This document shows positions 1 to 15,668 of a stretch of DNA of 29,008 bases, one piece after another. A program made the position numbers and the translations under genes. The stretch comes from a virus: positions 1-29,008 of IMG/VR virus record IMGVR_UViG_3300020162_001081. One strand, written 5' to 3'. The first letter of the stretch is position 1, and each line of letters begins with the position of its first letter. The notes below the pieces were generated by a model. The model made no database searches, had not been told where the DNA came from, and saw only the letters and a program-made list of their open reading frames with translations.

Positions 1-597
1 AGTGGAACAGATGTTGGTGTTGCACATCAGAGTTCACCTTATGTCTCCATATATCCATGGACCACTGGTACAGGATTTGGTACCAAGTATGCTAACCCAG
101 CTACATTGCCGCCGAACAATGGCAATGCCGTGAATTTCAGTCCTAGTGGAACAGATGTAGGTATTGCCAATTCAACCACGACACCTTATGTCGGCATATA
201 TCCATGGACCACTGGTACAGGATTTGGTACGAGGTATGCTAACCCAGGTACATCACCTGGTGATAGCGTAAATGGAATTAATTTCAGTCCTAGTGGATTA
301 GATGTGGCTTTGGCCGGCGCCGCAAGCCCATATTTATTTTTATATCCATGGACCACCGGTACAGGATTTGGTACCAAGTATGCTAACCCAGCTACACTAC
401 CCTCCGGAGCAACCGGATACGATGTATCTTTCAGTCCTTATGGAAATGATATTGCATATGTAAATGGAACAGTAACACCAAGTATATCCGTATATCCATG
501 GATTTCGGGTACAGGATTTGGCACCAAGTATGCTAATCCGAACATTGCCACTTCTAGCACAGTGAACTCGGTGTCTTTTGCTGCGCTTGCAGCTTAA
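1..597 (+). CDS. Beta-propeller (WD40-like) repeat protein, 5'-partial
   Basis: The reading frame is open from base 1, so the true start lies upstream and at least 198 residues are visible. The protein is made of units of about 49 residues, each with an 'FSPSGTDVA' strand, an 'SPYVSIYPW' strand and a 'GTGFGTKYANP' loop. Four YPW copies are visible. The FSPxG and YPW strands resemble WD40-type propeller blades. The final unit ends in a hydrophobic strand (VSFAALAA) just before the stop, as expected if the last strand closes the ring with the N-terminal one. Proteins with this repeat are known from aquatic phages, where they are annotated as structural or fibre-like. A receptor-binding or fibre-tip role is inferred from its position at the head of the adhesin island. 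No enzyme motif is seen. An internal TTG at 106 is not a credible start because the repeat continues upstream of it. Confidence 0.8.
   Translation, partial: SGTDVGVAHQSSPYVSIYPWTTGTGFGTKYANPATLPPNNGNAVNFSPSGTDVGIANSTTTPYVGIYPWTTGTGFGTRYANPGTSPGDSVNGINFSPSGLDVALAGAASPYLFLYPWTTGTGFGTKYANPATLPSGATGYDVSFSPYGNDIAYVNGTVTPSISVYPWISGTGFGTKYANPNIATSSTVNSVSFAALAA
55..540 (+). repeat. In-frame tandem repeat, about 147-nt unit (4 copies)
   Basis: The sequence CCATGG followed by an ACAGGATTTGG core recurs with its CCATGG at 55, 202, 346 and 496, giving spacings of 147, 144 and 150 nt. The conserved block encodes YPWTTGTGFGTKYANP and is nearly identical in copies 1 to 3. Copy 4 has diverged (ATTTCG in place of ACCACT). 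The spacing equals one predicted propeller blade. Confidence 0.85.
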
Positions 598-618
598 TTA
601 TTTAAAAAGGAAAATAAA

Positions 619-993
619 ATGAGTTTTTATACTATTACGGAACAGAAAAAATTTGAAGCAATCGCAGATGCGGTTGTTGGTCGAGAAGAAGAAATTTTTA
701 GTTACGATATAAATATCACTAACTATGAAACAATGTTGATAACACTACCAGAAGGAGAATGGCCGCAACATCTCGTTCAGTATCAGAGATCAACACTGGA
801 TCAGGTACCCGATGAATACGATCAAACAGTTTCAGACTACCAATACAGAGATAGGATCAAGAGTCTTTTAAAAACCGAAAGACTTGAAAGAAGTAAATCT
901 TTCAAGGTTTATGAAGCACTTCTATCTCAACTTCCAGAAAACCAGAAAGAATCTTTAATTGCTGCTGCTGTACAAAAAAGATTGTCACAGTAA
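619..993 (+). CDS. Small acidic protein of unknown function in the fibre island
   Basis: This encodes 124 residues with no recognised domain. The start is supported by an AAAGGAAAATAAA leader ending at the ATG. The sequence is mixed acidic/basic and predicted largely helical, with a charged central stretch (residues about 60-95, rich in R, K, D and E) and a C-terminal helix ending KRLSQ. There is no signal peptide or membrane segment. It lies 21 nt after the propeller gene and 34 nt before the next gene, so it is probably cotranscribed with its fibre-like neighbours. A fibre-assembly chaperone is possible by analogy with small proteins beside phage fibre genes, but nothing in the sequence proves it. 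Confidence 0.75.
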   Translation: MSFYTITEQKKFEAIADAVVGREEEIFSYDINITNYETMLITLPEGEWPQHLVQYQRSTLDQVPDEYDQTVSDYQYRDRIKSLLKTERLERSKSFKVYEALLSQLPENQKESLIAAAVQKRLSQ

Positions 994-1027
994 TTTTGAT
1001 TGACATTCTTAAAAAGAACCACATAAA

Positions 1028-1219
1028 ATGCCGACAAAGCTTTCGCCTTCAAACTTAGATGAAACCCAAAACTTTTCAGCTTTGGTTCCTTCGGTATTCC
1101 AAGCAGCAAACGCAGCCTTCTTACAAGCAAACGCAGCCTTCCTACAAGCTAACACAGGTGGTGGCGGTGGAACCAGTTCAGCTGCAGCGGCAGGTTACTC
1201 ATTAATATTCGGGGGATAA
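1028..1219 (+). CDS. Mini fibre protein: N-terminal module plus two AAFLQAN repeats
   Basis: This encodes 63 residues. The first 35 or so (LDETQNFSALVPSVFQAAN) match the N-termini of the 953-aa protein at 3027 and the 245-aa protein at 10016. Two AAFLQAN repeats follow, then a GGGGG run and a short hydrophobic tail ending SLIFGG. It therefore contains the presumed attachment module without any distal domain. The stop codon is followed, after one base, by the ATG of the next gene in another frame, suggesting translational coupling. It may be a self-standing short fibre or adaptor, or the stump of a formerly longer fibre. Conservation of the module argues that the reading frame is real despite its size. 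Confidence 0.75.
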   Translation: MPTKLSPSNLDETQNFSALVPSVFQAANAAFLQANAAFLQANTGGGGGTSSAAAAGYSLIFGG

Positions 1220-1220
1220 C

Positions 1221-1592
1221 ATGGCAGCACCAAATTTAATCGGCGCAACAACAATCAATGGTAAAACAACCGGTGCAAACCTAACGAGCACAGCTGCAAC
1301 TACAGTGTTGAATAATCCAGCAAGTTCAGGTAAGTGTTTGAAAGTGAACACAGTCAATGCTTGTAACTATGGTGCAGCAGTAGCAAATGTAACAATAGGT
1401 TATTATACTGGTGCAAATGTGGGTGGAGTACAATTTCAAATTGCGGGAAATATTAGTGTACCTGGAAATAGTACATTAAATGTGATTGATAAATCTAGTC
1501 AATATTATCTAGAAGAAGGTACTAGTTTAGGAGCCACTGTAGGCACAGCCAATACAATCATTGTAACTTGCAGTTATGAGGATATAAGTTAA
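1221..1592 (+). CDS. Conserved aquatic-phage virion-associated protein, unknown function
   Basis: This encodes 123 residues beginning MAAPNLIGATTINGKT. The family is familiar from T4-like phages of marine bacteria: a small beta-rich protein with a conserved 'ASSGKCLKVN' segment, an 'ISVPGNSTLNVIDK' segment and a 'YYLEEG' turn before the last strands. No transmembrane segment or enzyme motif is present. The ATG follows GGGGGATAAC, a good purine-rich ribosome site that overlaps the end of the preceding gene. It sits between two fibre-like genes. A structural or fibre-accessory role is inferred from family context, and the molecular role is unknown. Confidence 0.8.
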   Translation: MAAPNLIGATTINGKTTGANLTSTAATTVLNNPASSGKCLKVNTVNACNYGAAVANVTIGYYTGANVGGVQFQIAGNISVPGNSTLNVIDKSSQYYLEEGTSLGATVGTANTIIVTCSYEDIS

Positions 1593-1593
1593 C

Positions 1594-2583
1594 ATGGTGA
1601 AGAGATATCAAAGTGGATTAATATCTGCTAACAATTCACCAACTAATATTTCACAAACATCTGGTTTTTTTAATATTAGTCAGCAAATGCAAGCCAAACA
1701 AGAGGGATTATGGCCACAAGCAAATAACAAAATAGACTCTTCTAGTGGCACAATTTTTACATCCACTCGACAGGTGGTATCTGGTCAAGTAATACAATAT
1801 AAATATCATGCTTTTTTATCCTCTTCCACTTTTGTGACAACCGGTAATGGCGTAGTTGATATATTAGTTGTCGGCGCCGGCGGCGGTGGTGGCGGAGGTG
1901 GCGCCACGAACCAAGGTGGTGATGGCGGTTCCGGCGCCGGCGTTGTAGTAATATCTAATCGATCTATTGCATCAAATACATATACAATTACTATTGGCGG
2001 CGGCGGATCAGGCGGAGCTCTTAGTGCGTCCGCTGGTGCAAATGGTTCAAATGGTACATTTAGTTCTGTAAGTGGAATTGTTGGAGCTAACTCAGCTGGC
2101 GGATTATTTGGCCGTGGTGGCGGCAATGGTGCGGCTTATCGAGCAGGAAATGGCGCCGGCGGCACCTGGACTGGTACCGCATCAGCAACTGCGGGTCTAA
2201 CACCAGGTATTGGATTGGGAGTAGATTTTTTTAACCTAGTTGATTTGGGTGAAAACACACCGGTAAGAAATTTTAGATTTGACACGGCAAACGGACTCAT
2301 ATACTTTGCAAGCGGCGGCACTAGTACATGGGCATCGACCACCAGCTCCGGTGGATCACCCGGAAGTGCCCGGGGGAATGCTGCGCTTGGCGGCGGCGCA
2401 GGCTGGGTAGTGACACAAACCTTTGGTGATACCGGATTGAATGCAACGAATGATGTACGACTTCTCCGTCAAGCTGCACCAAATATGGGTGGCGGTGGAG
2501 CTTCTGGATTTCGTGCTAGCGGATCCGCTAGCGATGGAAGTACTGGAGGTAGCGGGTTAGTTGTCATAAGATACAGAATATAA
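1594..2583 (+). CDS. Glycine-rich adhesin-like protein with GLWP N-terminal module
   Basis: This encodes 329 residues. Residues 1-45 carry the short motif EGLWPQ (GLWP at 38-41), shared with three other island genes. After a linker, a hydrophobic strand (DILVVGAGGGGGGG) opens a glycine-rich domain that ends at the C-terminus in GGSGLVVIRYRI. The same opening and closing strands frame the glycine-rich domains of the genes at 7824 and 13347. Glycine-rich repeats of this sort recall the polyglycine loops of T4-type gp38 adhesins, but homology is not shown. The role as a fibre-tip or receptor-binding protein is inferred. GC-rich GGCGGCGGC tracts contrast with the AT-rich surroundings. The ATG lies two bases after the upstream stop. 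Confidence 0.78.
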   Translation: MVKRYQSGLISANNSPTNISQTSGFFNISQQMQAKQEGLWPQANNKIDSSSGTIFTSTRQVVSGQVIQYKYHAFLSSSTFVTTGNGVVDILVVGAGGGGGGGGATNQGGDGGSGAGVVVISNRSIASNTYTITIGGGGSGGALSASAGANGSNGTFSSVSGIVGANSAGGLFGRGGGNGAAYRAGNGAGGTWTGTASATAGLTPGIGLGVDFFNLVDLGENTPVRNFRFDTANGLIYFASGGTSTWASTTSSGGSPGSARGNAALGGGAGWVVTQTFGDTGLNATNDVRLLRQAAPNMGGGGASGFRASGSASDGSTGGSGLVVIRYRI

Positions 2584-2617
2584 TTTATTTTCAATAACAT
2601 TTTAAAGGAGAAATATC

Positions 2618-2980
2618 ATGTCACATTTTGCACAAATTGATGAAAACAATATAGTAACTAGAGTACTAGTAATCGAACAAGATGTTGTCGATACTGGTCT
2701 ATTTGGAGAACCTAATACTTGGGTTCAAACAAGTTACAACACTTCGGGTGGCATACACCGTTTAGGTGGCACACCACTACGGAAGAATTATGCAGGCATA
2801 GGTTACACTTATGACTCTGAAAGAGATGCATTTATTCCACCAAAACCATATGCAAGCTGGATTTTGGTTGAAGATACATGCCAATGGCAAGCACCAGTGC
2901 CAATGAATGACGATGGTAAATTTTACCAATGGAATGAAGATACATTGTCTTGGGATGAAATCGTCACTCCAACAGAATAA
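2618..2980 (+). CDS. Conserved fibre-island protein, unknown function
   Basis: This encodes 120 residues beginning MSHFAQIDENNIVTRVLVIEQ, a family widespread in aquatic phages and usually found among fibre genes. Visible hallmarks are WVQTSYNTSGG at about 36-46, LRKNYAGIGYTYD at about 53-65 and a C-terminal segment (ASWILVEDTCQW, then KFYQWNEDTLSW). The last 37 residues align with the 71-aa protein at 9792. There is no membrane segment or signal peptide. A strong AAAGGAG ribosome site (2604-2610) precedes the ATG. A role in fibre assembly or as a virion component is possible, but the molecular function is unknown. Confidence 0.82.
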   Translation: MSHFAQIDENNIVTRVLVIEQDVVDTGLFGEPNTWVQTSYNTSGGIHRLGGTPLRKNYAGIGYTYDSERDAFIPPKPYASWILVEDTCQWQAPVPMNDDGKFYQWNEDTLSWDEIVTPTE

Positions 2981-2986
2981 TAAATA
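2979..2986 (+). promoter_or_regulatory. Candidate T4-type late promoter (AATAAATA)
   Basis: AATAAATA differs from the T4 late -10 element TATAAATA only in the first base. It begins at the stop codon of the 120-aa gene and lies 40 nt before the 953-aa fibre gene. It is supported by position and similarity only. Confidence 0.4.
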
Positions 2987-3026
2987 CTAGCTTGGGTTCA
3001 ATAACTTTCTAAAAGAATAAAAAGAC

Positions 3027-5888
3027 ATGTCAACAAATCTTAAACCGGGCAGATTAGATTCTAGTAAAGACTTTTCCGCATTTGTTCCTTCGGCATTTCA
3101 GGCAGCAAATTTAGCATTCTTACAGGCTAATGCTGCATTTACCGTTGCAAATTCCGGTTCAGGTGCGGCTTCATCTGGGTTATATGCGAATGCGGCTTTT
3201 TTACAAGCCAACTCTGCATTCACTAGAGCAAACAACTCGTTAAATATTACTACTGGCGGTACAGTTGCTGGCGATGTTATTATTACTGGTAATTTAACTA
3301 TTCAAGGTGAGCGCACCTACGCAAATACACAAACGGTGTTGATTGCAGATAACATCATTACTGTCAATGCCGCTATAGATCAAGCTTCTGCACCAGTTTT
3401 TAATGCTGGTATTGAAGTTGATCGTGGTTCTTCCGCCAATACAGCTCTGCTTTGGAATGAATCTACTGACAAGTGGACTGTAACGAATGATGGCACAAAT
3501 TATTTTAACCTTGCTTCAGATGCGGCTGAATCATATGCCAACGCAGCATTCTTACAAGCAAATACCGGTGTAACCAATGCGGCAACAGCTGACAGCAAAG
3601 CAGTAACATCCGGTTCATATGCTAATGCTGCTTTCTTGCAAGCAAACACTGCTGCAACAAATGCAACAAGTGCTGGCTTATATGCCAACGCTGCGTTCTT
3701 GGCAGCCAATAATTCTACAGACACTTGGGTAAGAGGTGCTGCTAACGCAGCCAGTTCTTATGCAAACTCTGCTTATACCCAAGCAAATACAGCAACTACT
3801 AATGCAGCAACAGCTGATTCTAAAGCAGTAACAGCTGGTTCATATGCAAATTCAGCCTTTGCCGCGGCTAATAGTAGTAATGGCACAGTAACTTCAGTGA
3901 CAGCTGGAACAGGTTTAACCGCAGGTCCTTTTATTACGGCTGGTAATACTCTCATAGTTAATGGGGTTGCTAGCTCTTACCTATCTGTGTCCGCTCTATC
4001 TGACACTCAAGCAATAGCAGTTTATCGTGGCGCATCTGGTTACCTACAAGCCGTTACTCTTAATGTCAGCGGTACAACAATCACATCAGGCACTGTACTG
4101 ACTCTCAATTCCACTAGCACAGTTCACACATCTGTCACTGCACTATCTGCTACTCAGGCTATAGTAACTTATTATGGTGTGAACCAGTACTTGCAAACCG
4201 CTACTCTTAATGTCAGCGGTACAACAATCACAGCAGGCACTATACTGACTGTTAATGCAGTTAGCAGCCAGCACAGCAAAGTTACAAAATTAACCGCTAC
4301 TCAGGCGCTGGTGGTTTTTCAAGGCCAATCTCCTTCGGATTACCTAAACACCTGTACACTAAACATCAGTGGAACAACGGTTACAGCAGGTGCCGTATTG
4401 ACTGTTAATGCAGTTAGCAGCGCCGAGACCTCACTCACTACACTATCAGCTACTCAGGCGTTAGTAACATACACAGGCGCGTCTGAATACCTACAAACCT
4501 GTACCCTAAACATCAGTGGAACAACGGTTACAGCAGGCGCCGTGTTGAATATTACATCAGCCGCAACCTACTACGGAGCAGTCACGGCCTTATCCGCTAC
4601 TCAGGCTGTGGTATCGTATCGTGGAACATCTAATTATGTAGAAGCTCGTACACTAAACATCAGTGGAACAACGGTTACAGCAGGCGCAATTCTGGTTGTT
4701 AGTGCAGTTGTTAGCGGCTGGCGAGCAATTACAAAAATAACCTCCAGTCAGGCGTTGTTGGCTTATCAGAATTCGGACTTATCTGGTCGCTTACAAACCG
4801 TTATTCTCGATATCAGCGGAACTACAGTCACAGCAGGCAACATTGTTACGGCCAGTGCTGGGAGTGCTTCATACATATCAATCACCACACTTACCACCAC
4901 TCAAGCATTAGTAGTATACTACGGAACAGATGGGTATCTTACAACCGCAACACTACAGTTATCCACCACAATCACAACCAGTGGCACAGTTACACTAGCT
5001 AATACAGCAGTAACTGCGGGTAGTTACACAAACACCAGTCTGACTGTTGATGCTCAAGGTCGTATTACAGCTGCAGCTAATGGTTCTGGTAGTGATGCTG
5101 CCAGTTCATATGCTAACTCTGCATTCACCGCTGCAAACACTGCTGCAACAAATGCAACAAGTGCTGGCTCATACGCAAATGCAGCATTCACCAAGGCTAA
5201 TACAGGTGGTGGTTCTGGTCTGTTCAACTCTGCAATCAATGTATCAACTGGTTATGCAGTCACAAGTGCTTTGGCAAATGCTGTAGTGTTTACTGCAAAT
5301 GCAACAGTTCATTCTATCTATATAACAAACATTGGTGCAGATGTTAATGCTGCAGTAACTATTACTGGTGACTTTACACCAGCAGGTTCTTCTGCAAATG
5401 TTTCATTGTTTAGAAATATTCCAATACCATCTCGTTCTTCTGTAGAGATGTTAAAGAAGCCACAAGTTGTCAGAACAAATGACATTATCAAAATGCAATC
5501 GTTCTTCAATAGTGTTGCTGCTTCTTCTAATGTACACGCAACTATTGTGTATGAAACTACTGCACTATCTACATTTGATAGATCAGCTGCATTGGCTGGC
5601 ACAGGTTACTCCACACTCTATACAGCAACAGGTAGTCCTGCGGTTATTGAGAGTATCAAAGTTGTTAACCAAGATACTGCATTTGGCAACCACGCAATCA
5701 GTATTATCTGGACAAACTCAGGCAACACTATACAAGGTTACATGGCCAAAGAAATTATTTTACCTGCAAACTCTACAATCGAGTTGTGTGAGGCACCAAA
5801 ATATCTGTCAACTGGAGATAAACTAGATATCTTTTCATCATTCGCCAACGTAGTATCGGTGTTCGTATCCGCTAAACGCACTTCATAA
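3027..5888 (+). CDS. Long tail-fibre-like protein with a seven-unit beta-propeller
   Basis: This encodes 953 residues. Residues 1-40 (LDSSKDFSAFVP...AAN) match the presumed attachment module of the genes at 1028 and 10016. Residues about 30-290 contain many YANAAFLQAN-type repeats with short charged linkers, a pattern of elongated trimeric fibre shafts in aquatic phages. They are interrupted at about 75-150 by a domain containing GNLTIQGERTYANTQTVLI. Residues about 308-655 hold exactly seven units of 49-51 residues with core LSATQALVTY...YLQT.TLNISGTTVTAG. Further ANAAF repeats occupy about 690-725, and a beta-rich C-terminal domain runs from about 735 to the end. The likely role is a virion fibre whose propeller or C-terminal domain contacts the host surface. 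The function is inferred; the architecture is seen. Confidence 0.82.
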   Translation: MSTNLKPGRLDSSKDFSAFVPSAFQAANLAFLQANAAFTVANSGSGAASSGLYANAAFLQANSAFTRANNSLNITTGGTVAGDVIITGNLTIQGERTYANTQTVLIADNIITVNAAIDQASAPVFNAGIEVDRGSSANTALLWNESTDKWTVTNDGTNYFNLASDAAESYANAAFLQANTGVTNAATADSKAVTSGSYANAAFLQANTAATNATSAGLYANAAFLAANNSTDTWVRGAANAASSYANSAYTQANTATTNAATADSKAVTAGSYANSAFAAANSSNGTVTSVTAGTGLTAGPFITAGNTLIVNGVASSYLSVSALSDTQAIAVYRGASGYLQAVTLNVSGTTITSGTVLTLNSTSTVHTSVTALSATQAIVTYYGVNQYLQTATLNVSGTTITAGTILTVNAVSSQHSKVTKLTATQALVVFQGQSPSDYLNTCTLNISGTTVTAGAVLTVNAVSSAETSLTTLSATQALVTYTGASEYLQTCTLNISGTTVTAGAVLNITSAATYYGAVTALSATQAVVSYRGTSNYVEARTLNISGTTVTAGAILVVSAVVSGWRAITKITSSQALLAYQNSDLSGRLQTVILDISGTTVTAGNIVTASAGSASYISITTLTTTQALVVYYGTDGYLTTATLQLSTTITTSGTVTLANTAVTAGSYTNTSLTVDAQGRITAAANGSGSDAASSYANSAFTAANTAATNATSAGSYANAAFTKANTGGGSGLFNSAINVSTGYAVTSALANAVVFTANATVHSIYITNIGADVNAAVTITGDFTPAGSSANVSLFRNIPIPSRSSVEMLKKPQVVRTNDIIKMQSFFNSVAASSNVHATIVYETTALSTFDRSAALAGTGYSTLYTATGSPAVIESIKVVNQDTAFGNHAISIIWTNSGNTIQGYMAKEIILPANSTIELCEAPKYLSTGDKLDIFSSFANVVSVFVSAKRTS
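3948..4990 (+). repeat. Seven tandem propeller-type units (147-153 nt)
   Basis: The (T/S)QA motif of each unit falls at 4005, 4152, 4299, 4452, 4599, 4746 and 4899, giving spacings of 147, 147, 153, 147, 147 and 153 nt. Several copies share long identical DNA such as CTAAACATCAGTGGAACAAC in units 3 to 5. Seven units is the classic count for a closed seven-bladed propeller. Confidence 0.85.
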
Positions 5889-5898
5889 GAGAAACACT

Positions 5899-7158
5899 AT
5901 GGCAATTAGTGGAATATTGACAAGTCGGAATCATTATAACCAGAGGGTTAGTGGTTTGTGGCCGACAATTTCTACATCTCTTTTTATTGTAACACCAGCA
6001 TCGGCAAGTATCAATGAGAGTTCATCATTAACCTTTAATGTTACTGGAGGAAATATTACCAATGGAACATATTACTGGTCAATTAATAATGTAACTACTG
6101 CGGCCGGTGATTTTTCAGCCAGTTCAGGTTCATTTACAATTACAAACAATGCTGGTTCATTTACAGTAACTGCGGCCGCTGATGCAACAACTGAAGGTAG
6201 TGAAACATTTACAGTATCAGTACGAACCGGTAGTGTTAGTGGTACTGTAGTTGCCACAAGTAGTTCGGTAACGATTAATGATACTAGTTTGACACCTGCT
6301 TCAACCAACCAATCGGCCATTTTTGGTAGCAGCACCTATGATGGTGTGAATTTTACCAATTTAGTTTCAAACACTGGAGTCGTTCAGAATAATGTTGCGG
6401 GTGTTGGTACTAATAGGGCTGGTTATGCCGGTTCAAATTACGGTACAGATAAGGCAATTTTTGCGTTTGGTGAATCTACAAATGAAAGAAAATTAATTTC
6501 AAACACCGGCGTTGTAGCATCAGCTGTTTCGGGTATAGGAACGATTCGTTACTACCTCGCGGCCGCTCCATTTGGCGGCGACAAAGCTATATTTGGTTAT
6601 GGCATTGGGCCCGGTTCCGTTAGAGTATCATTAACCAACCTAGTATCAAACACTGGCGTTGTTGCTAGTGACGTAAGCGGAGTAGGAACAATTAGAGGCC
6701 AGCTAGCTGCAACAAAATATGGCACAGATAAAGCTATATTTGGATATGGTACTGGGGCTAGCAACTATTCACTAACCAACCTAGTATCAAACACTGGCGT
6801 TGTTGCTTCTGATACTGCTGGTGTTGGTACTGTTAGATACTGGCTTGCAGCTGTAACCTATGGCACAGATAAAGCTATGTTTGGTTATGGACTAGGTGCA
6901 GCTAATTATTCACTAACCAACCTAATATCAAATACAGGTGTGGTATCTACTGACACTACGGGTGTTGGTACTGCTAGATGGGGATTAGGAGGCGCAGGTT
7001 ATAGTACAGATAAAGGCATATTTGCTTATGGTGCGGCGTCTGCTGGTGTGCCGTTATCAATGAAGAATCTGGTTTCAAACACTGGCGTTGTTGCTCTTGA
7101 TGCAGCGGGTGTAGGTACTGCCAAGTCGGTCATTACCGCGGCTTCTTTCGGTTCATAA
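5899..7158 (+). CDS. GLWP-module adhesin: Calx-beta-like domain plus six-unit propeller
   Basis: This encodes 419 residues. The N-terminal module ends in VSGLWPTI (GLWP at 19-22). Residues about 28-131 resemble a Calx-beta domain: an SINESSSLTFNV strand, then EGSETFTVSVRTG and a closing SSVTIND, with acidic residues where such domains bind calcium. Residues about 140-419 are six units of 44-49 residues with core NLVSNTGVV...GVGT.R..LAA..YGTDKAIFGYG. The array opens with a lone AIFG strand and stops at ASFGS, just before the matching strand would recur, as in circularly closed propellers. The gene at 8819 carries the same array without the Calx-beta domain. The likely role is a virion adhesin, and receptor binding is inferred. 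Confidence 0.8.
   Translation: MAISGILTSRNHYNQRVSGLWPTISTSLFIVTPASASINESSSLTFNVTGGNITNGTYYWSINNVTTAAGDFSASSGSFTITNNAGSFTVTAAADATTEGSETFTVSVRTGSVSGTVVATSSSVTINDTSLTPASTNQSAIFGSSTYDGVNFTNLVSNTGVVQNNVAGVGTNRAGYAGSNYGTDKAIFAFGESTNERKLISNTGVVASAVSGIGTIRYYLAAAPFGGDKAIFGYGIGPGSVRVSLTNLVSNTGVVASDVSGVGTIRGQLAATKYGTDKAIFGYGTGASNYSLTNLVSNTGVVASDTAGVGTVRYWLAAVTYGTDKAMFGYGLGAANYSLTNLISNTGVVSTDTTGVGTARWGLGGAGYSTDKGIFAYGAASAGVPLSMKNLVSNTGVVALDAAGVGTAKSVITAASFGS
6310..7158 (+). repeat. Six tandem SNTGVV/KAIFGYG units
   Basis: The TCA codon opening each SNTGVV motif lies at 6367, 6499, 6646, 6787, 6928 and 7075, so units are 132-147 nt. CCAACCTAGTATCAAACACT is identical in units 3 and 4 and recurs in the gene at 8819. 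Confidence 0.85.
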
Positions 7159-7210
7159 CAATTAACCAACCTAAATATTTTTTTACAACAACCTTTTTTA
7201 TGGATAAATT

Positions 7211-7816
7211 ATGGCATCAAATCTAAACTCTGAATTCAACTATCGTTATCAAGTTATTGGTAGCACACCGTGGGAAAAAATTAAAACTCTACAAGGATTC
7301 TTAGTCGGTAGAAAACGCGCAGCAGTGCTTGAAGAATGTGCTGAACTTAAATATCAAGCTAAACTAGAAGAGTTGGATCACCTAAGATCAATACCGGCAG
7401 CAAAGCACCTGATTCTAAATTTGCGTGCTGAAATTTTGGAATTAGAATCACACTTAGATGACCAAAAACATGCATTCGAACTTAATCGTAAAGAGATTAA
7501 AATATTGGAAAAGTTAATGTCAGAACTTTATATGGAAGTTGAACCAACAAGACTTAAACATGAAGACGGTACACTTTATACAGACGATGAGATGTTTGAG
7601 GAAAATGCTAACTATGAATTTACAGTAACTGTTGGTCGTGAGATTCAGGCAGAAATTATTGCCAATGGTAGACCAAGTCCTGCTAAATTATTAAATGCAA
7701 TGAGTAATCCGCAAACATTAGAGTCACTTAAATTAGTTGGGCTTATTCCAAAAGAAGCAGCCTTATTGATGCAAAATGATGTTGTTGGATTAATTGGTAA
7801 CGATACAACCGAGTAA
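7211..7816 (+). CDS. Conserved T4-like aquatic phage protein with coiled coil, unknown function
   Basis: This encodes 201 residues. It opens with FNYRYQVIGSTPWEKIKTLQGF and then RKRAAVLEE, the signature of a family widespread in cyanophages and related myoviruses. Residues about 35-110 are long charged helices with heptad-like leucine spacing, probably a coiled coil (ILELESHLDDQKHAFELNRKEIKILEKLM). The C-terminal half contains EIQAEIIANGRPSPAKLLNAM, also characteristic. There is no signal, membrane segment or catalytic motif. A GGATAAATT leader supports the ATG. It sits between two adhesin genes. A chaperone or fibre-assembly role has no direct support, so the function stays unknown. Confidence 0.83.
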   Translation: MASNLNSEFNYRYQVIGSTPWEKIKTLQGFLVGRKRAAVLEECAELKYQAKLEELDHLRSIPAAKHLILNLRAEILELESHLDDQKHAFELNRKEIKILEKLMSELYMEVEPTRLKHEDGTLYTDDEMFEENANYEFTVTVGREIQAEIIANGRPSPAKLLNAMSNPQTLESLKLVGLIPKEAALLMQNDVVGLIGNDTTE

Positions 7817-7823
7817 AACAAAA

Positions 7824-8807
7824 ATGGGTATTTTAGACGATATTTTTTCGTTGCGTAGTATGAATGACCTGAGAGCAGATGGGTTGTGGCCGACTAGTGT
7901 TACTCCGCCTCCAGCACCACCATCATCAGTAGAATATCTTGTAGTTGCTGGAGGCGGAGCAGGTTCTAAGTCAAATGCAGGCGGCGGCGCAGGCGGGTAT
8001 AGAACTGCTAGCGGATTTGCTGTTTCTTCAGGTAGTGCATTGACAGTGACCGTAGGTGCCGGTGGCGCAGCATCGACTACTGCTGGTCAGGGTGCAGTTA
8101 ATAACGCTTTGTACGGTACTCCTTCGGTATTTTCTTCAATTACATCGAATGCTGGCGGGGGTGGTTTAGCTACTGACGAGTATGGATATGGGTATGTGGA
8201 TCCACCGAGTCTTCAGTCAGTAGCCACCGGTTCGGGCGGTGGATCAGCTGGCAACACTCGTAGATTCGGTGCAAATGGTACAGCCGGCCAAGGCAATGCT
8301 GGTGGAAGATCATCCGAAAATAACGGCTTTGGTTCCTATGGCGGGGGCGGGGGCGGTGCCGGAGCTGTTGGTGGTGGTGCAATTCAAGGTGCAAGCGGAT
8401 CAACAATTACCCCTGGTGCCGGAGGCGCCGGTGGTGTAGGCCTATCCTCTAGTATAAGTGGCACAGCAACATATTATGCTGGTGGCGGCGGCGGCGCGTC
8501 TTCCGCAGGGGTACGTGGTGTAGGTGGCACTGGCGGTGGCGGCAGTGGTGAACAAACAAATACTTATGGATCTAGTTACGGCGGTCCAGGTGTATTTTAT
8601 TCTCCTGTAGCGGGTACAACTAATACAGGCGGCGGAGGCGGCGGCGGTCATACAGTTGATGGTCAAGCTGGCGGGTCCGGTATAGTAATTATTCGTTATG
8701 CAGATACATCCGCAGCAGCAACATCAACTACAGGTTCACCAACAGTCACGGTAGCAGGTGGTTATAGAGTGTATAAATTTACATCTTCTGGTTCAATAAC
8801 ATTCTAA
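7824..8807 (+). CDS. Glycine-rich adhesin-like protein with GLWP N-terminal module
   Basis: The ATG at 7824 is preferred over an upstream in-frame TTG at 7794. It lies just after the preceding stop (7816), and the encoded MGILDDIFSLRSMNDLRADGLWPT matches the other GLWP modules (GLWP at 20-23). This gives 327 residues. A proline linker leads to VEYLVVAGGGAG, the start of a glycine-rich domain, which ends at GGSGIVIIRYADTS. A final beta segment, YRVYKFTSSGSITF, resembles the HTFTSSG segment that closes each glycine-rich domain in the gene at 13347. The inferred role is a fibre-tip or surface-binding protein. The GC-rich glycine codons differ from the neighbouring genes. Confidence 0.78.
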   Translation: MGILDDIFSLRSMNDLRADGLWPTSVTPPPAPPSSVEYLVVAGGGAGSKSNAGGGAGGYRTASGFAVSSGSALTVTVGAGGAASTTAGQGAVNNALYGTPSVFSSITSNAGGGGLATDEYGYGYVDPPSLQSVATGSGGGSAGNTRRFGANGTAGQGNAGGRSSENNGFGSYGGGGGGAGAVGGGAIQGASGSTITPGAGGAGGVGLSSSISGTATYYAGGGGGASSAGVRGVGGTGGGGSGEQTNTYGSSYGGPGVFYSPVAGTTNTGGGGGGGHTVDGQAGGSGIVIIRYADTSAAATSTTGSPTVTVAGGYRVYKFTSSGSITF

Positions 8808-8818
8808 AATAATAAAAA

Positions 8819-9763
8819 ATGGCAGATACAAATATTACAGGGCCACTTTGGGGTTACGAGTATCGAAGCAGAAGACTTGCTGGCTTGTGGCCGACTAGTG
8901 TTTATGTGGCTGCAGTTGCAAATATTAGGGCTATATTTGGTTTTGGATTTAGTACTGTTAAGGTATCAATAACCAACCTAGTATCAAACACTGGTGTAGT
9001 TGCTACAGACACTGCTGGTGTTGGTACTGTTAAATCGCAGTTAGCAGCTGCTGGTTATGGTACAGATAAAGCTATCTTTGGATATGGACTTAATGCAGGT
9101 GATTCCGATATATCAATAACCAACCTAGTATCAAACACTGGTGTAGTTGCTACCGATACTGCTGGTGTTGGTACTGCTAGAAGTAATTTAGCTGCTGCTG
9201 GGTATGGCACAGATAAGGCTATATTTGGATATGGAAGTGGTCCAACTGCTATAACCAACAAAGTATCAAACACTGGTGTAGTTGCAACTAATACCACTGG
9301 TGTTGGTACTGAGAGGTTTCATCTGGCAGCAGCTGGGTATGGCACCGATAAAGCAATATTTGGATATGGAGCTGCAGCAGGATTTGTATTAGTATCATTA
9401 ACAAACCTAGTATCAAATACTGGAGTGGTAGCAACTGACACCACTGGTGTTGGTACTGTTAGGCGACTTCTAGCAGCCGCAGGATATGGTACCGATAAAG
9501 CTATATTTGGTTATGGCCTCGGTCCAGTATCAATGACCAACCTAGTATCAAATACTGGAGTGGTAGCAACTGACACCACTGGTGTTGGTACTGCTAGATC
9601 CTCATTGGCAGCTGCTGGTTATAGCACAGATAAGGCTATATTTGGATATGGAGGAGACGCATCAATGACCAACCTAGTATCAAACACTGGTGTAGTTGCT
9701 ACAGACACTGCTGGTGTTGGTACTGCTAGAAGTAATTTAGCTGCTGCGTCCTACGGTTCATAA
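8819..9763 (+). CDS. GLWP-module adhesin with six-unit propeller
   Basis: This encodes 314 residues. The N-terminal module RRLAGLWPTS (GLWP at 22-25) is followed almost directly by the propeller array, which opens with RAIFGFG and ends ASYGS. Six units have core NLVSNTGVVATDTAGVGTAR, then LAAAGYGTDKAIFGYG. It looks like the paralogue of the gene at 5899 without the Calx-beta domain. The units are far more alike than those of 5899, suggesting recent homogenisation. No clear Shine-Dalgarno is seen; the leader is AATAAAAA. Receptor or surface binding is inferred. Confidence 0.8.
   Translation: MADTNITGPLWGYEYRSRRLAGLWPTSVYVAAVANIRAIFGFGFSTVKVSITNLVSNTGVVATDTAGVGTVKSQLAAAGYGTDKAIFGYGLNAGDSDISITNLVSNTGVVATDTAGVGTARSNLAAAGYGTDKAIFGYGSGPTAITNKVSNTGVVATNTTGVGTERFHLAAAGYGTDKAIFGYGAAAGFVLVSLTNLVSNTGVVATDTTGVGTVRRLLAAAGYGTDKAIFGYGLGPVSMTNLVSNTGVVATDTTGVGTARSSLAAAGYSTDKAIFGYGGDASMTNLVSNTGVVATDTAGVGTARSNLAAASYGS
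8926..9763 (+). repeat. Six tandem SNTGVV/KAIFGYG units, highly similar
   Basis: SNTGVV codons start at 8984, 9131, 9266, 9413, 9548 and 9680, with spacings of 147, 135, 147, 135 and 132 nt. Units 1, 2 and 6 share the spelling CAAACACTGGTGTAGTTGCT, while units 4 and 5 share CAAATACTGGAGTGGTAGCA. This shows two recent duplication or conversion groups. Confidence 0.85.
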
Positions 9764-9791
9764 CAATAAACTAAAATAACAAAGGTAAAAA

Positions 9792-10007
9792 ATGATAGAC
9801 TTAGAAAACATGCCTGAACCAACAGCAGAAGAAATTGCTCAAGCAAGAGAAAACGCATTTAATGCTGAACGGCCTGCATCATGGGTTTGGAATGAAGAAG
9901 CAGTATCATATGTTGCACCGATAGCAATACCAACTGATGGTTATCCATACTTGTGGGATGAAGCTACAACTAATTGGGTACCATTCCCAGATTTTCCTAG
10001 AGATTAA
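9792..10007 (+). CDS. Small fibre-island protein, C-terminal paralogue of the gene at 2618
   Basis: This encodes 71 residues. After an acidic N-terminus (MPEPTAEEIAQARENAF), the segment ASWVWNEEAVSYVAP, then YPYLWDEATTNWVPF, aligns with the C-terminal 37 residues of the protein at 2618 (ASWILVEDTCQW, KFYQWNEDTLSW). An AAAGG ribosome site precedes the ATG. It could be an independent small accessory protein or a shortened relative. The function is unknown. Confidence 0.75.
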   Translation: MIDLENMPEPTAEEIAQARENAFNAERPASWVWNEEAVSYVAPIAIPTDGYPYLWDEATTNWVPFPDFPRD

Positions 10008-10015
10008 AATTCACA

Positions 10016-10753
10016 ATGGCAACAAAAGTACCACCGTTAGCGTTAGATTCGACTAAAGACTTTTCTGCATTAGTCCCTGCGGCGTTTGCTGCAGCAAATG
10101 CGGCCTATGCTCAATCGAATTCAACTGTCACATTAGTCTCTGAAGTTTTCAATAAGGCCAATACAGCTGCTGATGGTGGTTCAAATGCAAACGCAGCATT
10201 TCTGCAAGCCAATGTTGCAATATCTAATGCTGCTGGTGCAAGTCTGTATGCAAATGCGGCTTTCTTACATGCAAACGCAGCATTCTTACAAGCTAACACC
10301 GGTGGTGCAGATCAATTAGCAAGAGACACGGCAAATGCAGCTTTCATTCAAGCCAATGCAGCATTCATTCAAGCAAATACAGGTGGTGCAAGTACCGATC
10401 AAGTGGCAAGAAATACTGCAAATGCGGCCTTCTTACGAGCCAATACAGATTTCATTTCACTTAGTATGCCAGGTACCATCACCTCGCCGGTGACTGGAAA
10501 TGCAAGATATTATCCAACCGATACAATTGTTATAAATACAGTATATGCAAATCTAAGTGAAGCTCCCACAGGTAATTTTACTTTCATCATTAAAAAGAAT
10601 GGTACCAGTATAGGTAACACATTTATATTTTCAAGTGCCGTGATGACACCGAATGCGGTTAATGTTTCATTGACTACAAGTGATTATCTGACACTGGATG
10701 TTACAGGTGTTAATGGTTCAAACTTAAATGTTAAATTAAAATACAGTTATTAA
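10016..10753 (+). CDS. Short tail-fibre-like protein with AAFLQAN repeats
   Basis: This encodes 245 residues. The N-terminus (LDSTKDFSALVPAAFAAAN) is the same module as in the genes at 1028 and 3027. Residues about 25-145 hold ANAAFLQAN-type repeats, broken by GGADQLARDTANAAF and GGASTDQVARNTANAAF spacers, consistent with an elongated trimeric shaft. Residues about 150-245 form a beta-rich C-terminal domain (TITSPVTGNARYYP, then NFTFIIKKNGTSIG) resembling small phage head or fibre domains of beta-sandwich type. No enzyme motif is seen. It likely forms a short fibre; its receptor is unknown. Confidence 0.78.
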   Translation: MATKVPPLALDSTKDFSALVPAAFAAANAAYAQSNSTVTLVSEVFNKANTAADGGSNANAAFLQANVAISNAAGASLYANAAFLHANAAFLQANTGGADQLARDTANAAFIQANAAFIQANTGGASTDQVARNTANAAFLRANTDFISLSMPGTITSPVTGNARYYPTDTIVINTVYANLSEAPTGNFTFIIKKNGTSIGNTFIFSSAVMTPNAVNVSLTTSDYLTLDVTGVNGSNLNVKLKYSY

Positions 10754-10766
10754 GGTAATAACAAAA

Positions 10767-11066
10767 ATGAATAAAGAGTTTTTTCAAACTAAATTTGGTA
10801 CTAAAGGACATGTATACAAATTCATAGGTACAATTCCAGATGAAATTGTTGATGAAACGCAAAAAAATAGATATGTAACCATACAATTTGTAACTGATGT
10901 TAATAATTTTCAGTTGGCCACCAATGCGATTTTTATGCCAAATTATGGAAATATAATTTTTGTTTATGGTGATGTTAAATATGAATCGGATTTATTTCAA
11001 TTCATTACCAATTTAACTCCTGATGTGGTTGAACCTGTAGTCGAAGAAACACCCTCTGAAGGATAA
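10767..11066 (+). CDS. Small hypothetical protein
   Basis: This encodes 99 residues with no family I recognise. The sequence alternates basic and hydrophobic strands in its first 85 residues (residues 50-80 contain FQLATNAIFMPNYGNIIFVYGDV) and ends in an acidic, proline-containing tail (PVVEETPSEG). It starts 13 nt after a short-fibre gene and stops 3 nt before the next start, so it belongs to the same transcription unit. No membrane segment is seen. A structural accessory or chaperone role is possible but unsupported. Confidence 0.72.
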   Translation: MNKEFFQTKFGTKGHVYKFIGTIPDEIVDETQKNRYVTIQFVTDVNNFQLATNAIFMPNYGNIIFVYGDVKYESDLFQFITNLTPDVVEPVVEETPSEG

Positions 11067-11069
11067 AAA

Positions 11070-11894: not shown

Positions 11895-11897
11895 AAC

Positions 11898-13334
11898 ATG
11901 ATAGTTACATTTAAAACAACTCCAACAGGTGTAGGCACACTTGACACCGGATATGTAAATTTTTTACGATGCGTTACTGCAATTCTAACAGCAAACGCAG
12001 GCACAACATCTTTAACAGTCAATCCATATACCGCAAACAACACTATTAATACCGGATCAAACTGTATTGTTAGTATTGATAGTAATCAAGAGGGTGGTGG
12101 TTGGTTAACTAGTTCAGTCCATCATGTTCCATCTAGTGCAAACAATGTGGCAGCTTCAATTCAATCAATAGTATCCACTGCTGCACTTACTTATAAAGCA
12201 GATTTTTATAAGGCATCAGGTAAAGCAAGTCAACCGTACTACAAATTGTGTTTTCACTCATATAATGATTATAATTCAACCGGTGACTGGGGATTTACAG
12301 AGGCTGCCGGCACAACACTTCGGCAGACAAGATCTCTAATGAACGTCAATCAAGGTGCAAATATGTTAATCACCTACGGTTCTTCAACGACAACGAATTG
12401 GACCGACACCACTTTTCCTCCGGCCACAGGAGCAATCAGTACTAAGTGGAACGGTACAAGCCAAACAACATCTTACACGATGAATGGAGACATGTTTAGC
12501 GCACAGCAAAACAACGGACCAGGTTTGGTTTATACAGATACCAGTGTTCAATATACGATGGCTGTTGGTGCCGATTATTGTTTGATTTGGGAAAGTAAAG
12601 TCGGTGATACATATGCCGGCAGTTATTTCGGGACCACTACTATTGGCAATGGCACCACATACTGGAATAATGCTCGTTATGGAAGTATGTATTATATGGG
12701 AACAAGAGAAACCCAGCCATGGGAAGACACTCGGATTGATAATCCACCATGGGTTGCGTGGAACATAACAACAAATAATTTTGGCGCCGGCACAATTAAT
12801 AATCCATGGGCACCAGATGGTGTCTGTGCCTATATGGCTACTATGAATTCAGCGGGTGCCGTTGCGGCACCGGTGCGTAGATATACACAGAACGCTCGGA
12901 CAACACCATACTTCAATGGTTCTAACCATAGTTTGACTTCAACCACCAGCTCTGGTGCGGGTAATGTGGACGGTGCCACCAGAACCGGTATAGATTGTCC
13001 TATTTTTACACTTAAAAACTGGGGCAGCCTAACCGCGGCTCAGGCGCTTACATATGGGTGGAATACTAATACCGACAATTTTACATATTTACCTCAAGTT
13101 GATCCTACATCGGGCACTTTAGTTCCTGGTGCATATCCCATAGATATCAAAAGTTCAAATAGCTCACAATGGAATGCAGGAGGAAAATGCAAAAGCATTT
13201 ATAAGAGTCTTGGTATGCCATTTGCAACTATGAAAAGTTATTGGCAAGCTCAAAATCAAAATTTTAAAATTGACGGTGTAAATTATTTACCTATCGTTAT
13301 AGCTGAAGACATGTGGTTGATTAGAGTCGTTTAA
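11898..13334 (+). CDS. Predicted virion structural protein, unknown function
   Basis: This encodes 478 residues, rich in N, T, S, G, W and Y, as in many beta-structured phage tail components. The N-terminal VTFKTTPTGVGTLDTGYVNFL and C-terminal LPIVIAEDMWLIRVV are its distinctive ends. The middle contains repeated tryptophan and glycine turns (YGSMYYMGTRETQPWED at about 258-275, then NPPWVAWNI). No hydrolase or lyase active-site pattern could be picked out, although an enzyme domain cannot be excluded. Residues around 370-478 are more polar and end in a hydrophobic strand. It follows its 274-aa partner by 3 nt and precedes the large glycine-rich gene by 12 nt. Confidence 0.7.
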   Translation: MIVTFKTTPTGVGTLDTGYVNFLRCVTAILTANAGTTSLTVNPYTANNTINTGSNCIVSIDSNQEGGGWLTSSVHHVPSSANNVAASIQSIVSTAALTYKADFYKASGKASQPYYKLCFHSYNDYNSTGDWGFTEAAGTTLRQTRSLMNVNQGANMLITYGSSTTTNWTDTTFPPATGAISTKWNGTSQTTSYTMNGDMFSAQQNNGPGLVYTDTSVQYTMAVGADYCLIWESKVGDTYAGSYFGTTTIGNGTTYWNNARYGSMYYMGTRETQPWEDTRIDNPPWVAWNITTNNFGAGTINNPWAPDGVCAYMATMNSAGAVAAPVRRYTQNARTTPYFNGSNHSLTSTTSSGAGNVDGATRTGIDCPIFTLKNWGSLTAAQALTYGWNTNTDNFTYLPQVDPTSGTLVPGAYPIDIKSSNSSQWNAGGKCKSIYKSLGMPFATMKSYWQAQNQNFKIDGVNYLPIVIAEDMWLIRVV

Positions 13335-13346
13335 TAATATCTGAGT

Positions 13347-15668
13347 ATGGCAATTAATTTAGAATACTTAGTAATTGCAGGTGGCGGTGGTGGCGGCGCA
13401 ACTAACTCCAATAACGGCGGTGGTGGTGGCGGCGCAGGCGGACTATTAACTGGTAATACTGCGCCGGTTTCAGGCGTTTCATATACCGTAACAGTTGGTG
13501 GAGGAGGCACCGGTGCCACTCAAAGCGTAGTTGGTGTGTCTGGTGCAAATTCATCTATAAGCGGCACATCAGTTAGCATAACTTCAATTGGTGGCGGCAG
13601 AGGCGGCACCATAAGCACCGCCGGCACCGCTGCAGGAGCAAATGGTGGTTCTGGCGGCGGCGCAGACGGTGAAGGCGGCGCCAATGTTGGTTTAGGAACT
13701 GCGGGACAAGGTAATAACGGCGGCCAAGGCGGACTCGGCACAGGCGGAAATCAAGGTGCAGGCGGTGGCGGTGGCGCCGGTGCAGTAGGTGCCAATCGAT
13801 CTTCTGGATCTCCTGGAGCAGGCGGTGGCGGTGTTTCTAGTAGTATAAGCGGTACTGCGGTAGCATATGCTGGCGGTGGCGGTGGTGGCGTAAGTAATTC
13901 AGGTGCAACAACCGGTGCGGCTGGTGGTTCGGGTGGCGGCGGCAAAGGTGGCAATGTTAACGATATCGCATCAGTAGTATCAGGAACTACTAACACAGGC
14001 GGCGGTGGCGGTGGCGCAGGACATAACTATCCTACAAATACTAACTACGGTGGCGCAGGTGGTAGTGGAGTTGTTATAGTTAGATATCTAACTTCCACTG
14101 CAACAGGTACAGGTGGAACAATAACCACATCTGGATCATACACAGTACACACCTTTACATCTAGTGGAATACTCACAATAACCGAAACACCAGCTACAGC
14201 AAACGTTGAGTATTTGGTAGTTGCAGGCGGTGGCGGTAACTATGGCGCCGGCGGCGGCGGTGCTGGTGGTCTATTAACTGCCAACAATTTCTCGGTAAAT
14301 TCTGGGGCATCTATTACTGTGACAGTTGGTGCCGGTGGTGCGGCGACAAGTAATGGCATTGCGTCAGCGTTTGGCACAGTATCTACTTATGGTGGCGGCG
14401 GTGCCGGTTATGGGCCCAGCGGTGGCGGAGGTGCCGGTGGCGGCAATGGTGGTTCAGGTGGAGGATCATCATATTATGGAAATGCCGGCGGCAAGGGTGT
14501 GTATCCAGGATCCAGTTATGTAAGCGCGACCAGACAAGGATATGACGGCGGTATTGGATATAATGCTGGTGGCAGTACATATAACGGCGGCGGTGGTGGT
14601 GGCGCAGGCGCAGCTGGTAGTAATGGTGCTGTCGGCGGCAGTGTTGGTGGCAATGGAGGTATAGGTGTAGAAAGCTCTATATCCGGTACAGCCACATACT
14701 ATGCTGGTGGCGGTGGCGGCGCTGGTGCAACTACTAATGGCACTGGTGGACTTGGCGGCGGTGCTAATGCTAATGGTGGTCCGGCGCCGAATAATGTAAC
14801 GCCTGGACTCAGTGGAACAGTTAATACCGGCGGTGGTGCAGGCGGCGCCAATGCTGCTGGCGGCGGTGCAGGTGGATCAGGTATTGTTATAGTTCGTTAT
14901 TTAACTAGTGCTGGAACAGGTACAGGTGGAACAATAACCACATCCGGAGCATACACAATACACACCTTTACAAGTAGTGGAACATTTTCATTAACTGCGG
15001 CCGCGGTATCAGCAGCTAATACAACACTTACAGTAACACCAGTTCTTTCAAGCAACACTGCAAATGGACTTTCTATTATTGGTCAATCCGTGGTATGTTC
15101 TGATGGTACCTGGACAGGTTACACACCAATAGTTTTTACTTATCAATGGAAACGAGAAACAGTTAACATATCAGGTCAAACAAGTAATAATTACACACTA
15201 ACATTAAATGATGCTAATCAAAATTTAATTTGTGCTGTAACGGCTACAAATAATGTTTCAAGTTCCACAGCAAATAGTAATTCATATTTCGTTATAGTCA
15301 GTGGTGTATCAATTATTAAAAATCAAAAATACATTGTACCGTCACAAAATCTGGAAACATTTGCAACAGCCAATGATACACCTTTGACGGAATCACAGTT
15401 TCTTTCAATTAATGCTGCATCATCTATAGTAAGAGACTACATTGTACCAACACAAAACTTAGAAACTTTTGCAACAGCCAATGATACACCACTACCTGAA
15501 GCAAGTTTTGTCACACTTCAAAATTCAGCGAATGTAATCTATAAGACAAACCAATCAATTACTCAAAATCTAGTTGTCTTTACAACACATTCTTATACGG
15601 ATAACATACCTATCGTAGTGGGTGGTACCACAGTGGTTGGTGCAACAAACCAACAATATTGGCACTAA
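13347..15668 (+). CDS. Large adhesin: two glycine-rich domains, Ig-like domain, C-terminal repeats
   Basis: This encodes 773 residues with no long N-terminal module: the glycine-rich domain starts at residue 5 (EYLVIAGGGGGG). Domain 1 (about 5-285) and domain 2 (about 287-555) each end in a GSGxVIVRYLTS strand and an HTFTSSG strand. They are offset by 271 residues and clearly arose by duplication. Residues about 557-650 look like a bacterial Ig-like domain (GQSVVCSDGTWTG, TYQWKRETVNISGQTSNNYTL, LICAVTATN). The C-terminus has two copies of QNLETFATANDTPL plus a degenerate third. It lacks both the GLWP and the FSAxVP module, so it may attach differently or bind the end of another fibre. A receptor-binding role is inferred. 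Confidence 0.78.
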   Translation: MAINLEYLVIAGGGGGGATNSNNGGGGGGAGGLLTGNTAPVSGVSYTVTVGGGGTGATQSVVGVSGANSSISGTSVSITSIGGGRGGTISTAGTAAGANGGSGGGADGEGGANVGLGTAGQGNNGGQGGLGTGGNQGAGGGGGAGAVGANRSSGSPGAGGGGVSSSISGTAVAYAGGGGGGVSNSGATTGAAGGSGGGGKGGNVNDIASVVSGTTNTGGGGGGAGHNYPTNTNYGGAGGSGVVIVRYLTSTATGTGGTITTSGSYTVHTFTSSGILTITETPATANVEYLVVAGGGGNYGAGGGGAGGLLTANNFSVNSGASITVTVGAGGAATSNGIASAFGTVSTYGGGGAGYGPSGGGGAGGGNGGSGGGSSYYGNAGGKGVYPGSSYVSATRQGYDGGIGYNAGGSTYNGGGGGGAGAAGSNGAVGGSVGGNGGIGVESSISGTATYYAGGGGGAGATTNGTGGLGGGANANGGPAPNNVTPGLSGTVNTGGGAGGANAAGGGAGGSGIVIVRYLTSAGTGTGGTITTSGAYTIHTFTSSGTFSLTAAAVSAANTTLTVTPVLSSNTANGLSIIGQSVVCSDGTWTGYTPIVFTYQWKRETVNISGQTSNNYTLTLNDANQNLICAVTATNNVSSSTANSNSYFVIVSGVSIIKNQKYIVPSQNLETFATANDTPLTESQFLSINAASSIVRDYIVPTQNLETFATANDTPLPEASFVTLQNSANVIYKTNQSITQNLVVFTTHSYTDNIPIVVGGTTVVGATNQQYWH
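14102..14985 (+). repeat. Direct repeat at the ends of two glycine-rich domains (813-nt offset)
   Basis: AACAGGTACAGGTGGAACAA occurs at 14102 and again at 14915, both followed by a near-identical HTFTSSG-coding stretch. The 813-nt offset equals 271 codons, the size of the duplicated domain. Confidence 0.8.
15331..15500 (+). repeat. Two 36-residue repeats near the adhesin C-terminus
   Basis: ACATTGTACC starts the copies at 15331 and 15439, an offset of 108 nt. Both encode YIVP(S/T)QNLETFATANDTPL. A third degenerate copy (QNLVVFTTHSYTDN) follows. Confidence 0.75.

Follow-up and report, generated by a model that had tools for sequence, protein, structure and literature searches.

Multi-socket adhesin arrays with swapped domains are known from Ackermannviridae. 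According to the part of PMC11721090 available to us, the tailspikes of these phages (TSP1-4, e.g. those of CBA120) combine conserved N-termini with diverse receptor-binding domains, similar domains are found in tsp1 and tsp4, and recombination has been inferred; tandem and gp10-like XD domains are present in the N-terminus, and a beta-helical catalytic domain forms the body. A second comparable system is the host recognition cluster of pelagimyophages and cyanomyophages, in the accessible part of PMC7029224 a large variable fibre island of the structural region that ends at the neck gene gp14. Here we analyze a 29,008-base virus record (IMG/VR IMGVR_UViG_3300020162_001081; the whole stretch is called the window), in which 17 consecutive open reading frames (ORFs) on the plus strand occupy positions 1-15668. 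We consider it fairly probable that this island serves as the host-recognition region in a T4-like phage. Three genes of the island begin with different short modules, which we call sockets A, B and C. Among related phages the sockets are conserved and the distal parts (tips) are replaced, the same tip being found on different sockets and in different lineages. The most frequent kind of tip, P1, is a predicted propeller made of KAIFGYG repeats, and a nearby gene (7211..7816; all window features given here lie on the plus strand) encodes a protein of 201 amino acids (aa) that we call LNS after its motif LNSEFNYR.

The island resembles the tailspike loci in its set of several paralogous genes, in which conserved N-termini are combined with diverse C-terminal domains, and in that a similar C-terminal domain can occur on different sockets. 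It differs from them in sockets, tips and accessory proteins. The sockets are 22-25 aa long, and those of the window gave no PHROG or Pfam match to gp10-like XD domains. The tested tips match Gly_rich_2, Calx-beta (weakly), SBBP, Lcl_C (weakly) or the propeller model, and there is no beta-helical catalytic body among them. Like the T4-like host recognition cluster, the island is variable and lies beside a neck gene, here gp13 (15718..16494; phrog_211, E 2e-41), which forms its right-hand end; unlike it, the island has fixed sockets with exchanged tips and the P1 family, neither of which is described in the accessible part of PMC7029224. An earlier note, made from the sequence of the window, had put the island forward as its best candidate for an undescribed system, which was overstated in view of these two accounts. 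In the literature on phage adhesins and fibres we found neither these sockets nor P1 in phages nor LNS, the last having no family name to search for. A gp10-type N-terminal module as in T4 was not found on A, B or C; in the window it was detected, by phrog_677 (baseplate wedge tail fiber protein connector, E 2.5e-6), at the N-terminus of a fibre-like gene downstream of gp13-gp15 (18409-20220), which represents another socket type in the same phage.

Eight of the 17 ORFs are long and repeat- or glycine-rich (1-597 and those starting at 1594, 3027, 5899, 7824, 8819, 10016 and 13347), in agreement with the earlier note, which had counted at least eight. The note had further proposed a GLWP module common to four genes. 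The motif is present near the N-terminus of four ORFs (1594, 5899, 7824 and 8819), but it does not mark one module. Instead of a common socket there are three paralogous ones with GLWP at the end, namely A (22 aa, 5899..5964), B (23 aa, 7824..7892) and C (25 aa, 8819..8893); the fourth module, D, is seen only in this one phage, in the window (record G000) and in G009. We rejected D as a further member of the set, since in four relatives the corresponding position is occupied by a gene whose N-terminus is different and has no GLWP. In the window, socket A carries a Calx-beta-like domain followed by P1 (5899..7158), socket B a Gly_rich_2 tip (7824..8807) and socket C a six-repeat P1 propeller (8819..9763, the tip at 8918..9763). 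For the B gene we use ATG 7824, which agrees with the start in relatives; the ORF call at 7794 is a TTG start that overlaps the neighbouring gene.

Relatives were collected by a gp13 search (80 loci) and by DNA patterns for sockets C, B and FSA (8, 28 and 44 stretches of viral contigs), FSA being a further N-terminal module treated below. The C and B matches come from 32 records, i.e. G001 (the record of locus L006) and 31 others. Thirty of these 31 contain gp13, and the remaining one, G039, is a chance match. Five intact gp13 copies among the 30 are 98-100% identical to that of the window and the remainder about 53-55%, apart from G022. In G022 (L169, reverse strand, 3682-8001) an island of the first lineage leads into a gp13 cut after 132 aa (96% identical to the window's), behind which lie a second 71-aa gene and a distant, complete gp13 of the second lineage; this is either a natural whole-island recombinant or an assembly chimera. 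The gene maps that were seen follow a common plan in which the shaft gene is succeeded by A, an accessory gene, B and C in either order, in many cases a 71-aa gene that we call WDE, and finally gp13. Our socket table holds 31 records including the window, with G035 left out. All three sockets are present in 19 of them and the remaining 12, by our reading of the maps, end at the contig end upstream; in G021 and G022 the contig end also removes the start of A. Removal of identical islands left 13 distinct ones, of which G021 and G022 share most tips.

The pairwise comparison took the first tip longer than 90 aa for each socket and island. It leaves out the stubs of socket C, the two-blade gene that is the second C gene of G001, and, for the modules, copies cut by contig ends. 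Over the 13 islands, the median amino acid identity of modules A, B and C is 91, 87 and 92% (minimum 82, 78 and 84%), and that of the tips 22, 31 and 43%. At 80% identity the tips fall into 9 (A), 11 (B) and 12 (C) clusters. By motif, A tips are Calx-beta-like plus P1, P1, P1 plus Gly, a D60 type or Calx plus Gly; B tips are Gly, Calx plus P1, P1, Calx plus Gly, Calx with another end or Calx plus D60; C tips are P1, Calx plus Gly or Calx with another end. The D60 type consists of SBBP propeller repeats, and the other end of the C tip in G017 reaches 34.7 bits with Lcl_C against a cut-off of 34.9. The glycine-rich domains named in the earlier note are Gly_rich_2 (PF21722) in the genes at 1594, 7824 and 13347. 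Its Calx-beta domain fared less well: the window copy gives only Ig_3 at E 0.054, and a two-copy version from a relative matches PF03160 at E 1.3e-5 with 25.6 bits, below the cut-off of 27. The note's central expectation, that one module is followed by different tips in related phages, holds across the 13 islands, and some tips even cross between sockets; we also looked there for the opposite outcome, module-tip pairs that never change between related phages, and did not find it.

Individual pairs illustrate the replacement. L006 has a gp13 98% identical to the window's and the same A gene (A tips 92.5% identical); the last five window genes before gp13 are absent from it and there are two C genes. 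At socket B the module DNA of the window and G001 is 90% identical and the tips cannot be aligned, the window having Gly_rich_2 and G001 two Calx-beta-like domains and P1. Between G014 and G017 modules of the same sockets share 97% of DNA and the tips 52% (B) and 50% (C). Six pairs of tips on different sockets reach at least 75% amino acid identity. The best are G014.B with G017.C (95%; tip DNA 94%, module DNA 51%) and G014.C with G020.A (93%; tip DNA 94%, module DNA 44%). Tips also cross between lineages: those of G021.B and G031.B agree completely in most 30-column bins, one indel excepted, despite gp13 being 98% and 54% identical to the window's, respectively. In base-level alignments of four pairs, identity changes abruptly at the GLWP codons or directly behind them in two, and about the start of, or inside, the Calx-beta-like spacer in the other two. 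A, B and C have very similar hinge codons, with TTG for Leu in 33 of 35 cases (versus 22% usage in the window); as the sequences are related, this likeness is suggestive only. Shuffling of single blades between sockets was not seen: among blade pairs that do not share both socket and position, 26 reach 93% DNA identity or more, and all of these lie within one socket.

Most complete copies of the P1 tip contain six KAIFGYG repeats, and some contain five. The propeller repeats named in the earlier note stand, as a prediction, for this type (5899 and 8819), through structure prediction of the tip at 8819. AlphaFold run on it with 43 aligned rows produced four strands in most repeats. Foldseek placed kelch domains first (E 1.3e-7, TM-score 0.67; 266 chains at E 0.001 or below), and VIA-align found KLHL20 (Z 23.1, root-mean-square deviation 3.0 over 266 residues) and a monomeric Ralstonia solanacearum lectin (Z 22.1). 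We thus predict that P1 is a six-bladed kelch-like propeller, the fold being well supported by the match despite a weak model. Six blades, with four strands in most repeats (at low model confidence), are shared with KLHL20, KLHL3 and Keap1; unlike these, P1 lacks a kelch sequence profile, none being among the Pfam matches up to E 10 of 14 P1 members, and identity to the kelch matches is about 9-15%. Assignment to Peripla_BP_4 or other Pfam families was discarded, all matches being below the cut-off. Profile searches against PDB put Photorhabdus PLL-type lectins first, as the sole family below E 0.1 (E 2.3e-7 and 5.6e-7); the former value is for the whole sequence, and single stretches are weak (E 0.00029 to 0.23 among those shown), both sides being repetitive. 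Single proteins searched against PDB by phmmer gave no match. The PLL/PHL lectins have seven four-stranded blades with sugar sites between them (accessible part of PMC12203525), as against six repeats, or in some copies five, in P1.

Of 180 blades, all taken from tips on A, B or C, 175 were parsed. Framework columns mostly stay below 1 bit of entropy, and the consensus frame is kept in 43 sequences from many socket types. The loop after KAIFGYG occurs in 119 distinct forms among the 175 blades (2.2-3.2 bits per column at the common lengths 6 to 8); for the two residues that directly follow GTAR the entropies are 3.1 and 3.5 bits. Over 4991 non-independent blade pairs, the ratio of nonsynonymous to synonymous polymorphism (pN/pS) is 0.16 in the framework, 0.93 in the loop and 1.25 at the residue pair behind GTAR. 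When the A tips of the window and G001 are compared, the sites covered are free of amino acid changes, and one loop differs in length. We suggest that the variable loops may read a receptor, perhaps a surface glycan, the ligand being a guess. In Keap1 the contact residues lie directly after the GG doublet and directly after the conserved Arg, as do the variable sites of P1. The Keap1 contact residues are listed in PMC6891428, which in its accessible part does not contain this mapping. Diversification of P1 as a receptor-binding protein by a diversity-generating retroelement was considered and rejected, no reverse transcriptase (PF00078) having been found in the nine records searched, which are fragments; the same search was positive in 3 of 14 controls.

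A P1 relative is encoded in 536 of 579 pattern-matched stretches of viral contigs. Among the best 80 of these 536, further short N-termini (MSITITGG..., MPIIFEGATISGG..., MDIGQGISIGGG...) also carry P1, frequently in two or three adjacent genes. In BFVD the P1 relative is 73% identical and belongs to an uncultured phage. The window proteins at 8819 and 5899 and that of L239 gave no tblastn match at E 0.01 in INPHARED (50,697 phage records; low-complexity filter on, no repeat-protein positive control), and P1 is likely absent from phage isolates. In genome contigs one of 11 pattern matches encodes a P1 relative, in an Oligoflexia metagenome-assembled genome. There, at 4806-6555 of L275, a P1 gene with a signal-like N-terminus is directly followed by LNS; by our reading the signal is TAT-like and the neighbours are housekeeping genes. 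In the class of this bacterium, P1 or LNS was found in one of 143 genomes, which is the starting genome itself. Another repeat family (ITYATDTATASVRGPL) is carried by sockets of the P1 kind in L217 (3924-4928) and L243 (3945-4922).

LNS is present in 63 collected loci, all with P1, and in no locus without P1; the loci are redundant and partly chosen by P1. From this co-occurrence we propose that LNS may be a partner or chaperone of P1 tips. It has no match above cut-off in Pfam, PHROGs and NCBIfam and none in INPHARED at E 1e-5. Candidate identities that we dropped are a kinase (PDB profile matches weak, best E 0.052) and, for its relatives, HmpF (E 0.049), Terminase_6 (0.076) and DUF2773 (0.0082), all below cut-off. 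In other islands (L168, L193, L196, L198 and others) the place of LNS is taken by a gene for a protein of 97-119 aa with the motif MQEQLYI, collected from 23 loci, none with P1.

The likely explanation, in our view, is that the island encodes three paralogous adhesins with fixed sockets and exchangeable tips, displayed side by side. According to this model, A, B and C would each be fixed by the short GLWP-ended peptide to one of three places on the tail or neck, and their tips would be shown together. Co-infecting relatives may recombine through the shared TTGTGGCC(A/G)ACT word or through spacer DNA, so that a receptor-binding domain could be traded without touching the docking surface. The loops of P1, to judge from the strong fold match of a model of low confidence, might then contact the receptor, and LNS might help to fold or attach P1 tips.

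The earlier note had left it undecided whether the adhesins act as a mixture or as replaceable cassettes. If cassettes were silent, one socket would be expressed at a time and the others would serve as tip donors by phase variation. Tipless socket-C remnants of 53 aa in G012, G016, G028 and G034 (e.g. L194 852-1013, where the stub overlaps the start of LNS) and the likeness of the hinge word in all sockets could be read in this way. The 19 records with all three sockets nevertheless carry long tips on each of them, the four aligned junctions do not lie at one fixed site, the nine records searched gave no reverse transcriptase, and no recombinase family turned up in the genes scanned, although no dedicated search was made. 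Simultaneous display fits better, because 19 of 31 records hold all three sockets and the remaining 12 are, by our reading, truncated at the contig end, and we regard silent cassettes as unlikely. It would be quite improbable that the proteins are not virion adhesins at all and represent secreted or intracellular repeat proteins encoded beside neck genes, as might be imagined from the P1-LNS pair with its signal-like N-terminus in a bacterial contig and from virion location being deduced from genes. Against this, gp13 is present in 30 of the 31 records and downstream of the sockets in the maps seen, fibre and baseplate families occur among the six upstream genes of G001 that were scanned against PHROGs, the neighbouring shaft gene can bear Mtd_N, and Gly_rich_2, SBBP, FG-GAP, LamG and Lcl_C-like domains occur on A, B, C or FSA sockets. 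Purely vertical divergence, in which tips evolve fast on fixed sockets and swapping is only apparent, might appeal to the near-identical A tips of the window and G001 and to partial clustering of tips by socket. We consider it very improbable, as tip classes differ in kind between close phages (socket B of the same pair) and tips 93-95% identical sit on different sockets.

Several points weigh against three side-by-side adhesins with traded tips. The location of A, B and C in the virion is deduced from the genes. The mean predicted local distance difference test score (pLDDT) of the P1 model is low, 50.5, and the first AlphaFold model, of the whole C protein, had 40.7 and no Foldseek match below E 1. 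The hinge codons are non-independent observations. LNS was not found in 13 of 25 P1-bearing records searched whole (it is present in 12), so that either it is not obligatory for P1 or the records are incomplete. P1 tips partly cluster by socket: the tree of 32 tips requires 9 changes of socket label, with a minimum of 2 and a mean of 15.1 after shuffling, none of 200 shuffles being as low. Because the changes are fewer than in every shuffle, crossing between sockets is only occasional, with inheritance otherwise. Finally, the evidence for exchange comes from metagenome assemblies, and assembly of repeat genes may hide or create changes in blade number. With three displayed adhesins as the preferred model, what was a guess about interchangeable fibres becomes a measured case with fixed sockets, replaced tips and visible junctions. 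Tip exchange probably lets related viruses change what they stick to. A bolder idea, towards which we are tentative and slightly inclined to doubt, is that uncultured phages use P1 as a universal, antibody-like recognition scaffold. It would comprise one conserved frame of six blades, each blade having two hypervariable sites (about 12 per propeller), placed on unrelated sockets, often two or three per phage, in many with a dedicated LNS partner, and traded between sockets, lineages and, once, a bacterial genome. If P1 is a true variable-loop recognition scaffold, phage specificities could be read from its loops as from a table and tested with glycan arrays, and nature would offer a counterpart to designed propeller binders. 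The LNS family would be a clear target for a chaperone or attachment assay.

A two-blade socket-C gene of 126 aa at 9270-9650 of L006 is either a deletion product or encodes a chain needing a trimer for six blades. The FSA(L/F)VP...AAN module, correctly assigned to three genes by the earlier note (1028, 3027 and 10016), is likewise joined to different distal parts. A loose FSA expression retrieved 33 distinct proteins, at least two of them chance matches (L143, L150). Proteins starting with SRLDS(T/S)KDFSSLVP or nearly so range from 74 to 1648 aa and differ in their distal ends, with LamG in L163. The window gene at 10016..10753, absent from L006, shares its socket with an 878-aa gene at the same place in G021, which has seven FG-GAP stretches and Gly_rich_2. 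The shaft protein (3027..5888) consists of an FSA socket, AAFLQAN repeats, a repeat domain and a C-terminus in common with its homologue L006:1765, where Mtd_N takes the place of the FSA N-terminus. A 63-aa protein (1028..1219) has an FSA socket and two AAFLQAN repeats without a tip.

The remaining genes of the island begin with the 3' part of a repeat protein (1..597), its 5' end cut by the contig end; its WTTGTGFGTKYANP repeats are propeller-like by eye and it matches phrog_19311 weakly (E 7.3e-5). The D protein with its Gly_rich_2 tip (1594..2583) is followed by a small phrog_7759 protein (2618..2980; E 2.4e-37), an accessory and perhaps chaperone-like, whose type has matches in 39 of 50,697 phage records. 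The 71-aa protein at 9792..10007 (WDE is a label of our own reading) adjoins P1 genes and resembles the C-terminal part of phrog_7759. A 478-aa protein (11898..13334), a candidate fibre part absent from the L006 island, has no PHROG or NCBIfam match and Pfam matches all below cut-off. The last gene (13347..15668) has two Gly_rich_2 stretches and no socket module. Megablast of the island against INPHARED gave no match, and a cyanophage host is unsupported, PF00124 (the psbA family) being found in none of nine records. Beyond gp13 we take the genes, from sequence and order, for a T4-like series up to gp22, with names other than gp13 and gp17 being our reading; the large terminase gp17 is below 60% identity in all 2,517 matching phage records. 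A gene not seen in the window or G009, which resembles an HNH endonuclease (MNHKHHIIPKHMGG) and which by our reading we label HNH-like, follows gp13 at 10779-11282 of L006 and is also found in G021, G025, G026 and G027.

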